Positions 40,470 to 48,336 of a stretch of DNA of 52,027 nucleotides are shown in pieces; position 1 is the stretch's first letter; each line of letters opens with the position of its first letter. The notes under the pieces are model-generated. The model did no database searches and was not told the origin of the DNA. It saw only the letters and a program-made list of their open reading frames with translations. The DNA lies in the NCBI GenBank assembly GCA_016788825.1, contig JAEUSD010000007.1, forward strand, positions 1-52,027, read 5' to 3'. The DNA comes from Candidatus Doudnabacteria bacterium (GTDB lineage Bacteria > Patescibacteriota > Dojkabacteria > J137 > JAEUSD01). The position numbers and the translations under genes were made by a program.

Positions 40470-41066
40470 ATGTCTTACCTTGTACCAACAGTTATCGAAA
40501 AGAGTCGCGAAGGGGAGAGGGCCTACGATATTTATTCCCGTTTGCTCAAAGATCGGATAATTTTTTTGGGCAGCCCCATCAACGATGATGTAGCCAATGC
40601 TGTAGTTGCTCAGTTGCTATTCCTAGAAAAAGAAGACCCGGAGAAAGACATTACAATGTATATTCATTCTCCAGGAGGAGTTATCTACTCCGGACTAGCG
40701 ATCATCGACACGATGAACTTGATCAAGCCAGACGTGGCAACCGTCGCCGTAGGAAGCACCGCCTCCATGGGGACTATGATCTTGACCAGCGGCGCAAAAG
40801 GCAAACGTTTTGCATTACCACATTCAACTATCCACATGCACCAACCATTGGGCGGGGCAGAGGGACAGGCGTCTGACTTGGAGATTACAGCGAAAGAAAT
40901 TCTAAGGCTAAAGGACTTGCTCGTAGATATGCTCGAAGAATCAACGGGTCAAAAACGAGACCAAATCATCCACGATATTGATCGTGATAAATACCTGACA
41001 GCAAACCAAGCCAAGGAATATGGCTTGATAGATAAGATCATTAAGAAGAGAGAAGACGCAAAATAA
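40470..41066 (+). CDS. clpP: ATP-dependent Clp protease proteolytic subunit
   Basis: 198 aa, normal length. Serine peptidase core: oligomer-interface [12 protein letters not shown], catalytic Ser near 99 in GSTASMGT, catalytic His near 124 in MHQPLGG, and catalytic Asp in [18 protein letters not shown]. The N-terminal [22 protein letters not shown] is typical. It forms the tetradecameric chamber fed by ClpX or ClpC unfoldases, which are not in the window. It is monocistronic, followed by a very strong terminator. Confidence 0.98.
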
Positions 41067-42122: not shown

Positions 42123-43703
42123 ATGGAACCTGATTCGAATAATAGTACATATGACTTAGATGTGTTGCGTCATTCTGCCGCGCATGTGTTGGCTATGGCA
42201 GCATTACGCCTCTTCCCAGATGCGCGGGTAGGGGTAGGCCCAGTGACGGAGGAAGGTTTCTACTACGACTTTGAATTCCCCACACCTATTACCGAGGCAG
42301 ACTTAAGGCAGATAGAAGCAGAGATGAACTTAATCATCCAAGAAGGGCTAGCTTTCCAGCAAATCGTAGTCAGCAAAGACGAAGGTTTCGACATTTTGCT
42401 CAAGCGAGGTCAAATATTCAAAGCCGAGCTATTACGCGAGATCCCCGAAGCTGAAGCCAGTTTCTACAAAACTGGGAACGAATTTATCGACTTATGCCGA
42501 GGGCCACATGTGGCAGGGACAAACAACGTAGGAGTGGTAAAGTTGATCGATTTACAAGACGTGAACTGGCGCGGCGATCCGACGCGCCCTAGTCTCCAAA
42601 GAATCCATGGTGTAGCTTATCCATCTCTGGAAGAGCTGCAAGCCTACCTCCGAAGACGCGAAGCAATCAGCAATCGAGATTTCCGAAAACTTAGCAAATT
42701 CCTACAACTCACTTTAGGCGACCAAAGTGAGGTTGTGTATACACCAGGCGGAACGCTTGCGTTCCGCCAGATCCAGAAAGTGATCTCCGACAAGTTCCGC
42801 CAACAAAGTTACGACGAAATCTTGGCATCCCCCATCCGTAGCCTGGAACAAGTAGAAGAGAGCATGGACAAGTTTTACACCCACAAGAACCGAAGTTACA
42901 AAGAATTACCCTTACGCGTATTTACAAACCTACGTAACGAGCTCGATGCCCCCACAAGGATCATCGGCCGCGAGTACAACTCCGTAACATCATTAACATT
43001 TAAATCCTACTTTCAACCCCAAGAAAAGTTTGCCGAACTCCAGGCCCAGCTATCTGCCATAGTTGAATCACTAGATCAATTGAAGTTACCTCGGAGCTTG
43101 GCCCGCATAGTGGTTTCGGACCACGAGTCAGAGCTACTGACCCAGATCAGCGAGATCATGCAGCGAAAAGGAATTTCTCAGACACATATCATCAAGCCTA
43201 ATATCTCGGGTGCTGAAATTGAATTCGTCGCCGAAGACAGCCTAGAAAGAGAGTGGGAGATCTGCCACACCTACTACTCCGAGGGAGCAATTGAATACGT
43301 AGATAAGTCCGGTCAGATGGTAAAAGGAAACACATTATGCACTCATTGGACTGTAGAGAAATTACTCGCCTTCTTTATCGAGGATCAAGAAGGACTACTC
43401 CCACTGTGGCTAGCGCCTGTACAAGCAATCATTATCCCGATTGCAGAAGAACAGCTGGATTTCGCCGAAAAGATCCAAGATACACTCATCACCAATGGAT
43501 TGCGCGCGCAAATCGATGCGCGCGCAGAGACAATGCAGGCCCGAATCAGGCATGCAGAACTATTGAAAATCCCTATCATAATCGTGATCGGCGAAAAAGA
43601 ACGCCAAAACAACTCTGTGTCCCTGCGATTGCGCAGTCAACGCGAACTAGGACTCGTGTCGGAAGAAAGCCTTGTAGAAACGATCTTAAGTTTGTATAGC
43701 TAA
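42123..43703 (+). CDS. thrS: ThrRS-like protein: editing and anticodon-binding domains with degenerate catalytic core
   Basis: 526 aa against ~640. The N-terminal TGS domain is missing. The editing domain is intact: HSAAH (His17, His21) and CRGPH (Cys125, His129). The C-terminal anticodon-binding domain is normal (LWLAPVQAIIIPI onward). The aminoacylation core is altered. The stretch with the zinc-binding Cys (normally NCPGH) is deleted to SMDKFYTHKN. Motif 2 keeps RNE but loses the QDDAHIF block with the second zinc ligand. Motif 3 reads WTVEKL where GSxERF is expected, losing its Arg. Inference: it may only hydrolyse Ser-tRNA(Thr) in trans, with another ThrRS elsewhere. It holds two perfect hairpins (42747-42768 and 43501-43526). 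Confidence 0.8.
   Translation: MEPDSNNSTYDLDVLRHSAAHVLAMAALRLFPDARVGVGPVTEEGFYYDFEFPTPITEADLRQIEAEMNLIIQEGLAFQQIVVSKDEGFDILLKRGQIFKAELLREIPEAEASFYKTGNEFIDLCRGPHVAGTNNVGVVKLIDLQDVNWRGDPTRPSLQRIHGVAYPSLEELQAYLRRREAISNRDFRKLSKFLQLTLGDQSEVVYTPGGTLAFRQIQKVISDKFRQQSYDEILASPIRSLEQVEESMDKFYTHKNRSYKELPLRVFTNLRNELDAPTRIIGREYNSVTSLTFKSYFQPQEKFAELQAQLSAIVESLDQLKLPRSLARIVVSDHESELLTQISEIMQRKGISQTHIIKPNISGAEIEFVAEDSLEREWEICHTYYSEGAIEYVDKSGQMVKGNTLCTHWTVEKLLAFFIEDQEGLLPLWLAPVQAIIIPIAEEQLDFAEKIQDTLITNGLRAQIDARAETMQARIRHAELLKIPIIIVIGEKERQNNSVSLRLRSQRELGLVSEESLVETILSLYS
42747..42768. repeat. Perfect intragenic hairpin, 10-bp stem, 2-nt loop
   Basis: Arms 42747-42756 (ggcggaacgc) and 42759-42768 are exact complements in the thrS-like gene, encoding GGTLAFRQ. 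Confidence 0.7.
43501..43526. repeat. Perfect intragenic hairpin, 10-bp stem, 6-nt loop
   Basis: Arms 43501-43510 and 43517-43526 are both tgcgcgcgca, itself a palindrome, around aatcga. It lies in the anticodon-binding domain of the thrS-like gene. Confidence 0.65.
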
Positions 43704-43747: not shown

Positions 43748-44293
43748 ATTCGATTCACAAGATCACATCGCAAATTTAATAACAACAAGCCCAAGTTACC
43801 TTTCTTCGAGCGTAATGGATTTATTCAGGCAGCTCAAATGTTGGTGGTAACAGATGGAGGAGAGAGTTTGGGTGTGCTGGACAAACAAACAGCCCTCAAC
43901 AAAGCTAGAGAATTAGAGTCAGATTTGGTTCTAATCAACCCTCAAGCCACCCCTCCGGTAGCCAAAATCATTGCTTGGTCGAAGTTCAAGTACGAACAGA
44001 GCAAGAAGAAGAAAAAAGCGATGAAGAATAAAGGCAGTGAGGTAAAGGAGATGTGGTTCAAACCATTCATCGAATTAGGTGATATGGAGCACAAAGTGGG
44101 CCGAATCAAAGAGTTCTTAGAAAAAGGAAACAAAGTAAAGATCACAATCCGAGCAGGACGCGGACCTATCAACCGAGAAAAGATGTCTGCCACTTTGGAA
44201 AAAGTGCTCGAGATGTTAAACTCTGTGGCCGAGGCAGAAGGGGATCGCAAGCAGGAAGGCCGAAATGTAATAGTATTCGTAAAACATAAGTAA
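43748..44293 (+). CDS. infC: Translation initiation factor IF-3, AUU start
   Basis: 181 aa if started at the ATT at 43748. The first ATG in frame (43838) would cut off the N-terminal domain: residues before it (FFERNGFIQAAQ) align with the conserved NxxIRAxEV segment of IF-3. No ATG, GTG or TTG lies upstream in frame, and AGGA stands 7 nt before the ATT. Known: infC uses AUU in Escherichia coli and many bacteria, allowing autoregulation. The C-terminal domain is normal (WFKPFIELGDMEHKVGRIKEFL, KITIRAGRGP). It sits in the conserved order with rpmI and rplT. Confidence 0.88.
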   Translation: MRFTRSHRKFNNNKPKLPFFERNGFIQAAQMLVVTDGGESLGVLDKQTALNKARELESDLVLINPQATPPVAKIIAWSKFKYEQSKKKKKAMKNKGSEVKEMWFKPFIELGDMEHKVGRIKEFLEKGNKVKITIRAGRGPINREKMSATLEKVLEMLNSVAEAEGDRKQEGRNVIVFVKHK

Positions 44294-44307: not shown

Positions 44308-44529
44308 ATGGCATCTAAACTCAAGAAAGTAAAAGCAAAAACACACAAAGCTACCAATAAACGCTTCAAAGTAAGCGCTTCAGGCAAAATCATGCACCTT
44401 GGACAAGGCGCAGGCAATGGTCATAGCAACAGCTACAAAAACCGTCGTCAACGCTTAACCACCAAGTCTATGAGAGCTATGGGTAGCAACAAGGAACGTA
44501 TCAAAGTATTAAGACTATTAGGCAAATAA
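44308..44529 (+). CDS. rpmI: 50S ribosomal protein L35
   Basis: 73 aa, very basic. KAKTHKATNKRFKVSASGKI is the family signature, with a long basic middle (NRRQRLTTKS). It starts 14 nt after infC, followed 1 nt later by rplT. No ribosome-binding site; A-rich leader only. Confidence 0.96.
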   Translation: MASKLKKVKAKTHKATNKRFKVSASGKIMHLGQGAGNGHSNSYKNRRQRLTTKSMRAMGSNKERIKVLRLLGK

Positions 44530-44530
44530 T

Positions 44531-44872
44531 ATGAGAATTAAACGCGGAGCTCAAAAGAACAAGAAACACAAAGCCGTGCTACAAAGCACAAAAGGTTATC
44601 GCATGAGCTATAACCGTCTATACCGCCGTGCGATAGAAGCCGCATTGCACGCAGGACAATACAACTTTGCACATCGCCGCCACCGCCGCGCTCAAATGCG
44701 TGACCAGTGGATCAAGATCATCTCGGCAGCCCTCGCTGAGTCCCAAGTCAGCTACCATGACTTCATGGGAAATCTGAAGCGTCACAACGTAGTTCTAGAC
44801 CGTAAAGTACTAGCAGAAATCGCCCAAAACAATCCGCAGCACTTTAAGCAGCTAGTAACAGAAACTGCGTAA
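44531..44872 (+). CDS. rplT: 50S ribosomal protein L20
   Basis: 113 aa, basic. SYNRLYRRAIEAALHAGQYNF, HRRHRRAQMRDQWIKIISAA and GNLKRHNVVLDRKVLAEIA match L20. It binds 23S rRNA and in many bacteria represses its own operon (known for the family). Between rpmI and pheS. Confidence 0.97.
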   Translation: MRIKRGAQKNKKHKAVLQSTKGYRMSYNRLYRRAIEAALHAGQYNFAHRRHRRAQMRDQWIKIISAALAESQVSYHDFMGNLKRHNVVLDRKVLAEIAQNNPQHFKQLVTETA

Positions 44873-44883
44873 TACTCATTGAC

Positions 44884-45918
44884 GTGAATAAAGATCAAAA
44901 CCTAGACACAACAAAGAAGCAATTAGCTTCAGATTTGAACTCAGCGAAGCAGTCTACTGACGTGGAAAAGCTGAGAGAGCAGTATCTAGGCAAGAGTTCA
45001 CCCATCCAAAAAGCACTCCAGAATCTCAAAGAACTCCCAGCAGAAGAGCGTAAAGCCGCAGGAGGAAAACTAAACCAGTTGAAGCAAGAATTAGAAACCC
45101 AAATCAATGACAAACTAACCGCTTTGCGCGAGGCAGAATACAATTCTCGGCTGGCCGGGGAGAGTTTAGACCTTGATTTGCCACCGTTAGCGGCCAGCCA
45201 AGGATATTTGCACCCTGTCACCCAAGAGTTGGAACGCATCGTTGATATCTTTCAACGCATGGGGTTCTCGGTACAGGAGCCATTTATGGTCGATGACGAG
45301 TACAACACATTCACAGCATTAAACATTCCTGAGGGGCATCCAGCCCGAGATATGTGGGATACAATCTACCTAGAAGACGACAACTTGCTCATTACTCATA
45401 CATCCTCAATGCAAAACAGAGTGATGTCCAGCAAGCAGCCCCCAATCCGCACGATTGTGCCAGGAAAATGCTTCCGAAATGAGGCAACTGACGCTACCCA
45501 TGAACATTCTTTCTATCAGCTAGAAGGAATATATGTAGATAAGAATATCAAGTTGTCAGATTTGATCGGAACACTATCTGAATTTTTGAACCAGTACTTC
45601 GAAACCAAAGTGCCCATTAAGATTCAACCGACCTTCTTCCCCTTTGTGGAACCGGCATTAGAAATCATGATGCCTCGCCCTAAACTGGGAGGTAAGTTAG
45701 ATCTGGAAAATTTCAATCCTGAGACGACCGATTGGCTTGAAGTAATTCCTTGTGGACCAATTCATCCCAATGTACTGAAGGAAGCTGGAATCGACGCCAC
45801 GAAGTACTCAGGCTTTGCTTGGGGCATGGGTTTGGAAAGACTAATAATGATCAAACGCCAAATTAACGACCTACGATATTTTCACTCAGGTCGAATAGAT
45901 TTCTTAAATCAATTTTAA
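44884..45918 (+). CDS. pheS: Phenylalanyl-tRNA synthetase alpha subunit
   Basis: 344 aa from a GTG start. The N-terminal coiled-coil region (about 1-85) binds tRNA. The class II core has GFSVQEPFMVDDEYNTF, motif 2 GKCFRNEATDATHEHSFYQLEG read in two parts (GKCFRNEATDATH, EHSFYQLEG) and motif 3 GFAWGMGLERLIMI. It charges tRNA-Phe as an alpha2beta2 complex with PheT, whose gene starts at the very next base. Confidence 0.97.
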   Translation: MNKDQNLDTTKKQLASDLNSAKQSTDVEKLREQYLGKSSPIQKALQNLKELPAEERKAAGGKLNQLKQELETQINDKLTALREAEYNSRLAGESLDLDLPPLAASQGYLHPVTQELERIVDIFQRMGFSVQEPFMVDDEYNTFTALNIPEGHPARDMWDTIYLEDDNLLITHTSSMQNRVMSSKQPPIRTIVPGKCFRNEATDATHEHSFYQLEGIYVDKNIKLSDLIGTLSEFLNQYFETKVPIKIQPTFFPFVEPALEIMMPRPKLGGKLDLENFNPETTDWLEVIPCGPIHPNVLKEAGIDATKYSGFAWGMGLERLIMIKRQINDLRYFHSGRIDFLNQF

Positions 45919-48336
45919 ATGCTTTTATCACTTAAGTGGCTTCAAAAATATATTCCAGATTTCCAGATAAACAATCTGGATAGCTTCAGATACAAAGTAG
46001 ATACACGACTGAGTGAGGTTAAGTCTGTGGAAGTGAAAGGACTCGGTTTGGAAAAACTTTTTACTGCTCAAATCTTGGAAGTAGAGGCTCACCCTAAGAG
46101 CGAGAAACTCCATGTGTGCAAAGTAACCATGGACGGGAAAGAACAAATCCAGATCGTGTGCGGTGCCCCAAATGTAAGGCCTGGCCTGGTGAGTGTACTG
46201 TGCTTACCTGGCGGGAAAGTCTACGCACCAGGCCATGCAGAGAGCGGTGTCTTGGAGATCGGTGTCCGCGCTGTCGCGGGAGTAGATTCAAATGGGATGC
46301 TGTGCTCAACTGCGGAGCTCGGCCTGAACGACCACCACGATAGCATTATTGAACTGCCGAGCTCCACCCCTTTGGGCGAAGATGTCACAGACCAATTCCT
46401 TGACACTGTCATTTATATCGAGAACAAGGCATTTCCTCATCGCCCGGATGTATTCTCTCATGCAGGGATCGCCCGCGAATTCGCAGCAATCTTTAGTAAT
46501 GAGTACAAAGGTGTTGAAAAGACAGCAGAATTCATTGCAAAAGCGGAAAACACGCTGCCACTAGAGGTGGAAATCAAAGCATCAGAAGGTTGTCAGAGAT
46601 TTAGCGCTGTAACCTTGTCAGATCTCAAGGTTGGCCCATCGCCCCTTTGGCTACAGATTTTGCTGAACTATTGCGGCGTAAGGGCGATCAACAACGTAGT
46701 CGATGTTACAAATTATATGATGCTAGATATGGGGCAACCTATGCACGCTTTTGACTATAGCAAGGTTGCTGAACACAAACTTACCGTACGCATGGCCCGT
46801 GCAGAAGAGGAACTCACCACCTTGGATGGCAAAGAACGCAAATTATCTAAAGAAATGTTGGTAATCGCTGATGGAAAGGCTGCCCAAAGTATCGCCGGCA
46901 TTATGGGTGGGGCCAGCACAGAGATTGCAAATGACACACAGGCGATAATCTTGGAAGCTGCCAACTGGGAAATGTACCGTATCCGCCGAACTTCTCGTGA
47001 ATTGGGGCTACGAAGCGAAGCTTCTACACGCTATGAAAAAGGAATGTCTCCCGAATATACAGCTATTGCAGTAGTCAAAGCAGCAAATATGTTACTTGAT
47101 CTGGCTGGAGCAGAGGTAGCAGGGGAACTGATCGATATTTACCCAGAAGCGGCAGAAGCCAAGCTTATTCCTTTCGAACTAAACTCTGTCGCCCATTTGC
47201 TCGGCGTACAGATAGACAAACAACAACTAATCGACATCTTGGAAAATCTGGAGTTAGAACCACAAAACCCAGAGCAGATCCCTGCAGACGCGTTGGCGCG
47301 GGCAGATATGCACACGGAATTGATGATCAAAGTGCCCGCGCACCGTCGAGACATCAATATTGGGGCTGACATTCTTGAGGAAATAGGTCGCTATTACGGT
47401 TACGAGAACTTTCCTCTCACACTACCCAAGCGCGACCTATTTCCTGCTGAAGTAAACAAACATTTTCACGCCAAACTTGAGCTTAAACACCTCATGGCAG
47501 CGAGTGGCTTGCACGAGATTTTCACCTATTCCATGATCGGAGCAGAACTGCTAGCAAAATCTTTGCTGACACCAAAAGGTTTACTGAAAGTTGTAAACCC
47601 CATATCCCCAGAATTAGCATTTGTGCGCAATACACTCATCCCCAGCATTCTGGAAAAAGTAAAAGTTAACCAGAATAAGTTTGGGACTTTTGGACTGTTT
47701 GAAATCTCACAAGTCGCTATTCCCCAAGGTGGCAAACTACCCGAACAGCCAGCAATATTATCTGGCGCTTACATATCTGAGGACGGTGAGACAGCATACA
47801 GGCATCTCAAGCAGGCGATTGTGTCTCTACAACAAAAATACCCTGGGAAAATCGCGCTAGAAGCTACCAAGAATGCTCCAGCATACATGCACCCGAGTAA
47901 GTGTGGTCAGGTAACTTTTGGGGGTAAACCTATCGGTTTTATCGGTGTTCTACACCCCAAGGCTGGCGACAACTTTGAATTTGGAAATAACGGTGTCGCC
48001 GTCTTCGAGATAAACCTTTCTGAGATCTTGAACTTCGTACCTGAAGTGCGACAATTCCGCCCACTGGCAAAAGTCCCTGCCGTTGTAAGAGATATTAGTT
48101 TCTGGGCAGATAAGGGTTTCTCTATGCAAGAACTTTCCACCAAATTGTCTGGCGCGAATATTCCTGACCTTGAATCATCGGCCGTTCTTTCCACATATAC
48201 CAAAGACGCCAAGCGCAGCTATACAGTACGGTTTACTTTCCAACCGTATGACAAAACTCTCACTCAAGATGAGATAAACTCACGCGTAGAGGCCATAAAC
48301 AACGCGCTCAAATCTTCGGGCTACGAACTAAGATAA
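45919..48336 (+). CDS. pheT: Phenylalanyl-tRNA synthetase beta subunit
   Basis: 805 aa, normal length. An EMAP-type tRNA-binding OB domain (about 40-150, AHPKSEKLHVCKV), B3/B4 editing domain (about 210-395, GVRAINNVVDVTNYMML, RTSRELGLRSEASTRYEKG), B5 region, catalytic-like core (RNTLIPSILEKVKVNQN) and a C-terminal ferredoxin-like anticodon domain (FRPLAKVPAVVRDISFW). It begins directly after the pheS stop with no spacer. A long-loop 9-bp inverted repeat lies near 47296-47340. Confidence 0.97.
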   Translation: MLLSLKWLQKYIPDFQINNLDSFRYKVDTRLSEVKSVEVKGLGLEKLFTAQILEVEAHPKSEKLHVCKVTMDGKEQIQIVCGAPNVRPGLVSVLCLPGGKVYAPGHAESGVLEIGVRAVAGVDSNGMLCSTAELGLNDHHDSIIELPSSTPLGEDVTDQFLDTVIYIENKAFPHRPDVFSHAGIAREFAAIFSNEYKGVEKTAEFIAKAENTLPLEVEIKASEGCQRFSAVTLSDLKVGPSPLWLQILLNYCGVRAINNVVDVTNYMMLDMGQPMHAFDYSKVAEHKLTVRMARAEEELTTLDGKERKLSKEMLVIADGKAAQSIAGIMGGASTEIANDTQAIILEAANWEMYRIRRTSRELGLRSEASTRYEKGMSPEYTAIAVVKAANMLLDLAGAEVAGELIDIYPEAAEAKLIPFELNSVAHLLGVQIDKQQLIDILENLELEPQNPEQIPADALARADMHTELMIKVPAHRRDINIGADILEEIGRYYGYENFPLTLPKRDLFPAEVNKHFHAKLELKHLMAASGLHEIFTYSMIGAELLAKSLLTPKGLLKVVNPISPELAFVRNTLIPSILEKVKVNQNKFGTFGLFEISQVAIPQGGKLPEQPAILSGAYISEDGETAYRHLKQAIVSLQQKYPGKIALEATKNAPAYMHPSKCGQVTFGGKPIGFIGVLHPKAGDNFEFGNNGVAVFEINLSEILNFVPEVRQFRPLAKVPAVVRDISFWADKGFSMQELSTKLSGANIPDLESSAVLSTYTKDAKRSYTVRFTFQPYDKTLTQDEINSRVEAINNALKSSGYELR

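Follow-up and report, generated by a model that had tools for sequence, protein, structure and literature searches.

The division of threonyl-tRNA synthetase (ThrRS) into a charging and a proofreading protein has been described for archaea. In the passages of PMC9976931 and PMC8762117 that cite Korencic et al. (2004), the archaeal protein ThrRS-ed appears as a stand-alone Ser-tRNA(Thr) hydrolase. In Anabaena, an engineered zinc-ligand triple mutant of the ThrRS T1 (T1-SYY) is dead in synthesis and keeps Ser-tRNA(Thr) deacylation; in vitro, it lowers the amount of Ser-tRNA(Thr) made by the other ThrRS, T2, and co-purifies with it (PMC4787780). The residues H73, H77, C182, and H186 of E. coli ThrRS are critical for editing, and the zinc held by C334, H385, and H511 is essential for aminoacylation (PMC4041444). 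If such a division arose naturally across a whole bacterial lineage, with sister families at graded stages, the route from synthetase to editing factor could be followed, and the case would reveal what makes very small genomes keep extra proofreading. The full-text literature that we searched, a scope outside which subscription papers and preprints fall, holds no report of such a bacterial case.

In this study, we analyzed a window of 52,027 nucleotides, positions 1 to 52,027 of contig JAEUSD010000007.1 of an uncultured Candidatus Doudnabacteria bacterium (class Dojkabacteria, WS6, within the CPR), which carries a catalytically degenerate ThrRS paralogue within a conserved gene cluster:

40470..41066, plus strand: clpP, landmark on the upstream side of the native thrS slot (gene order)
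42123..43703, plus strand: catalytically degenerate ThrRS paralogue of 526 aa, proposed Ser-tRNA(Thr) trans-editing protein (ORF, Pfam, NCBIfam, PDB alignment)
42153..42692, plus strand: bacterial-type ThrRS editing domain, aa 11-190 (residues invariant in seven complete family members; AlphaFold2 pLDDT about 90-98 in blocks of 10 residues)
42693..43397, plus strand: what is left of the class II catalytic domain, aa 191-425 (deletion of the NCPxH segment; substitutions at H385 and at the motif 3 Arg)
43398..43700, plus strand: anticodon-binding domain, aa 426-526 (HGTP_anticodon; Glu493 and Arg502 invariant)
43748..44293, plus strand: infC, landmark on the downstream side of the native thrS slot (probably starts with ATT)
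44308..44872, plus strand: rpmI and rplT, further genes of the conserved cluster (gene order)
44884..48336, plus strand: pheS and pheT, further genes of the conserved cluster (gene order)

Only two Pfam domains score above the cut-off in the 526-aa protein, tRNA_SAD (aa 113-161) and HGTP_anticodon (aa 434-523, 73.8 bits), and the latter match indicates that the anticodon-binding domain is kept. No Pfam match to tRNA-synt_2b was found in this protein or in any of the seven members of its catalytically dead family. Residue numbering follows an alignment to the PDB structure 1qf6 of E. coli ThrRS, in which His17, His21, Cys125, and His129 pair with H73, H77, C182, and H186. Tyr48, Lys100, and Asp123 are the equivalents of Y104, K156, and D180, which we take to line the ThrRS editing pocket, and together with the HxxxH and CxxxH motifs they complete the bacterial ThrRS editing signature. 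On the synthetic side, the segment with the zinc ligand C334 (NCPxH) is deleted, H385 is replaced by Leu, the H511 equivalent His408 is left, and the motif 3 Arg is replaced by Lys. The preliminary description, made from the window's letters and open reading frames, had read the protein as one that lost its aminoacylation motifs, including the NCPGH zinc segment and the motif 3 Arg, and kept its editing residues and anticodon-binding domain; the alignment and the domain searches bear out each of these points.

The protein shares its editing domain, anticodon-binding domain, overall fold, and gene position with bacterial/eukaryotic ThrRS (TIGR00418), but its catalytic core is not recognizable and its NCBIfam thrS score of 256.1 bits lies under the family cut-off of 383.65 bits. 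Judged from its sequence, it is not an aminoacylating ThrRS, by its zinc ligands, by its class II core with the motif 3 Arg, and by its thrS score. Continued charging of tRNA(Thr) by a route that needs no zinc is highly improbable. The survival of motif 2 Arg271 and of His408 speaks for such a route in the window's protein only; neither residue is conserved in the relatives, most of which have lost them, the NCPxH segment is deleted in all dead-family proteins, the motif 3 Arg is lost, and E. coli aminoacylation depends on zinc bound through C334, H385, and H511 (PMC4041444). AlaX and other free-standing SAD editors are likewise non-synthesizing proteins with a SAD editing site, but they are not close kin (29 bits for the AlaXM profile versus 256 for ThrRS), and the window's protein has a ThrRS anticodon domain. 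In the AlphaFold2 model (mean pLDDT 87), confidence is high for the editing and anticodon-binding domains. The model matches ThrRS structures with a TM score of up to 0.88 (1nyq), although the fold of the remnant domain is partly imposed and biased toward ThrRS because the alignment behind the model consists mostly of intact ThrRS.

One point of the preliminary description held only in part. The TGS domain is absent from the 526-aa protein as stated, but this absence is not decay: intact ThrRS of class relatives, for example L009-L012 (583-593 aa), also begin just ahead of the editing domain without TGS, and the absence is therefore a feature of the class.

The dead ThrRS lies between clpP and infC-rplT in all relatives whose contig extends that far. 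Other families of the class have an intact ThrRS in the same clpP-infC-rplT slot, and the dead gene is therefore the native thrS, in agreement with the position first assigned to it. The neighboring infC probably begins upstream of the ATG ORF listed at 43838, at an in-frame ATT (43748) that AGGA precedes by 7 bases. E. coli infC is known to use the same rare start codon, AUU.

The degeneration is shared among relatives, a point that the preliminary description had set out for checking: nine of the ten genomes analyzed from the order carry the dead form, with seven copies of full length and two truncated by contig ends. His17, His21, Tyr48, Lys100, Asp123, Cys125, and His129 are invariant in all seven complete proteins. 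Within the dead family, pairs of proteins are on average 45% identical in the editing domain, 19% in the catalytic domain, and 31% in the anticodon-binding domain; the corresponding values for intact ThrRS of the class are 57%, 50%, and 45%. Where intact ThrRS show at least 95% conservation of an alignment column, the conserved residue is kept in 63% of the dead family's cells in the editing domain, 21% in the catalytic domain, and 69% in the anticodon domain. Between the dead genes of genomes G009 and G004, pS is 0.79 (saturated) and pN is 0.067, and the catalytic remnant alone gives 0.77 and 0.081. By these measures, purifying selection extends to the catalytic remnant, which is thus maintained as a structure. 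A relic decaying toward loss, already disfavored, has very little probability left: the 19% identity between catalytic domains would suit it, but the reading frame is open in all seven complete copies, the seven editing residues do not vary, and the synonymous excess is strong even in the dead catalytic domain.

The persistence of the gene in its operon slot in every relative examined would also be expected of a regulatory or tRNA-binding pseudoenzyme, which would bind tRNA(Thr) or the mRNA of its own operon and control translation of clpP-infC-rplT, with the editing site serving in folding or oxidation sensing and not in hydrolysis. The editing Cys182 of ThrRS has indeed been proposed as an oxidant sensor (PMC4041444). 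We consider this reading unlikely, as the strongest constraint falls on the hydrolytic residues, including His and Cys side chains with a known role in deacylation, and a search of Rfam gave no regulatory element beside the gene.

A second, catalytic ThrRS, for which the preliminary description had proposed to search the rest of the genome, is present. It lies on another contig of the same genome (G000:C2:762-2474), is 610 aa long from its ATG, scores 650.7 bits, matches tRNA-synt_2b in Pfam with 133.8 bits, and has every catalytic residue intact. It adjoins ftsA and ftsZ (named by eye), and the GC content of its contig is 0.45 versus 0.44 for the window. In genomes G001 and G003, the dead and the complete gene share one long contig, and the pair is therefore not a binning artefact there. 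The complete ThrRS was not found in the assemblies of G002, G004, and G042, even though the dead native gene is present in them; this counts against the takeover of charging proposed below, and the missing gene most likely lies on an unassembled or unbinned contig. The active ThrRS retains the equivalents of H73, H77, K156, D180, C182, and H186, with N at position 104, and on this basis probably edits in cis. A second editor would seem redundant beside it, which counts against a role in trans-editing. In all four genomes of the order that we checked, there are exactly three SAD proteins, namely the active ThrRS, the dead ThrRS, and a third whose size is that of AlaRS; no AlaX-type protein is among them.

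We propose, with a probability of roughly two in three, that the native ThrRS was displaced in charging by the second ThrRS and turned into a dedicated Ser-tRNA(Thr) trans-editing protein. The native gene would be the vertically inherited ThrRS of this Dojkabacteria lineage, and the second complete ThrRS, whose active site is intact, would have taken over aminoacylation. The native protein has lost the zinc site and class II motifs, and the conservation of its editing and anticodon-binding domains shows that these have stayed under selection. The anticodon domain would bind tRNA(Thr), and the His73/His77/Cys182/His186-type site would hydrolyze Ser-tRNA(Thr) in trans, clearing mischarged tRNA freed by the active ThrRS. 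The conserved catalytic remnant may permit a heterodimer with the active ThrRS, by analogy with zinc-free T1 and T2 in Anabaena.

A stronger version of such a heterodimer makes the dead protein an obligate non-catalytic subunit of an asymmetric ThrRS, in which the active enzyme exists mainly as a heterodimer and its partner supplies tRNA binding and editing. Both the purifying selection on the remnant, which cannot catalyze but bears the dimer interface in ThrRS, and the pairing of Anabaena apo-T1 with T2 (PMC4787780) would fit an obligate subunit, but similar ThrRS occur without such a partner in other CPR classes, and we regard it as distinctly improbable.

Read as a trans-editing protein, the window's protein resembles archaeal ThrRS-ed, as far as the citing passages describe the latter: both are ThrRS paralogues that have no functional catalytic site, carry editing and anticodon-binding domains, and are accompanied by a separate catalytic ThrRS, and trans-editing is proposed here for the Dojkabacteria protein. 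The suggestion in the preliminary description of a bacterial counterpart to the archaeal split ThrRS is thus supported by the second complete ThrRS, the shared degeneration, and the native slot, with trans-editing as the predicted function. The dead form is nevertheless not archaeal ThrRS-ed, because its editing domain is of the bacterial SAD type (no archaeal tRNA-Thr-ED is among the Pfam matches above the cut-off) and it still includes about 200-235 aa of decayed catalytic domain. In addition, its catalytic partner keeps an editing domain of its own. Anabaena offers the parallel of two bacterial ThrRS in which a zinc-free subunit is a trans-editing factor for the other, as proposed here, and the zinc-ligand mutant T1-SYY mimics the anatomy of the dead form (PMC4787780). 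The difference is that zinc switches T1 reversibly, the metallated protein being a full enzyme (PMC4787780), whereas the zinc site and motifs of the Dojkabacteria protein are permanently gone. We are evenly divided on the broader claim that bacteria evolved their own ThrRS-derived trans-editor, with native thrS kept after the takeover as a permanent, operon-borne, editing-only subunit, possibly in a fixed asymmetric heterodimer, and with several Dojkabacteria families showing stages of the process.

Native-slot genes of three other families (f8, f10, and f11) show partial loss of zinc ligands and motifs, with the HHCH editing residues kept. Outside the class, no full-length dead form was found at E 1e-82 among 380 genomes sampled across the phylum. 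Three full-length matches in other CPR classes were considered as dead forms and rejected, all being intact ThrRS.

Other native-slot genes of the class depart from this pattern. In the family f3 paralogues (L052:4649-6403 and L056:4796-6544), the editing residues (C182 to Ala or Ser) and zinc ligands are lost, and the Arg residues of motifs 2 and 3 and the class II core are retained; these proteins possibly have a new specificity. Because of this loss, editing is not retained throughout the class, which counts against the proposed course of events. The native-slot gene L053:4098-5867 (genome G017) has an intact synthetic site and has lost its editing residues, the reverse split of the window's gene. 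G016, a single contig of 738 kb rated 94% complete, has both infC and clpP, but no ThrRS was found in it.

The editing-site Tyr (E. coli Y104) is lost in the active ThrRS, where GFYYD is changed to GWYND, GFSND, or GFYFD. A coupling of this loss to the dead partner, considered from its co-occurrence with a native-slot paralogue in the class, was weakened on three grounds: N, F, or G likewise stands at this position in ThrRS of other CPR classes, whose genomes give one match each; G045 carries a dead native gene and keeps the Tyr; and the assemblies of the seemingly partnerless G005, G028, and G039 are without the whole clpP-infC region.

The active ThrRS of Dojkabacteria are mosaic, in that the GxYND/GFSND/GFYFD editing domains form one clade and the catalytic parts are scattered; the mosaic proteins include that of the window's genome (G000:C2, L038), L014, L168, L169, L171, L032, L030, and others. 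A single clade for the changed-pocket ThrRS is rejected on the catalytic data (p-AU 6e-75), and keeping three catalytic clades together is likewise rejected on the editing data, with p-values that are optimistic because the clades were named after the trees were seen. The conflict between the editing and catalytic trees points to domain exchange within Dojkabacteria ThrRS. A further change at the editing site is seen in L186-L192 (families f6 and f12), L179, and L182, in which the K156 and D180 equivalents are replaced by Ser and Asn and the HHCH residues are kept.
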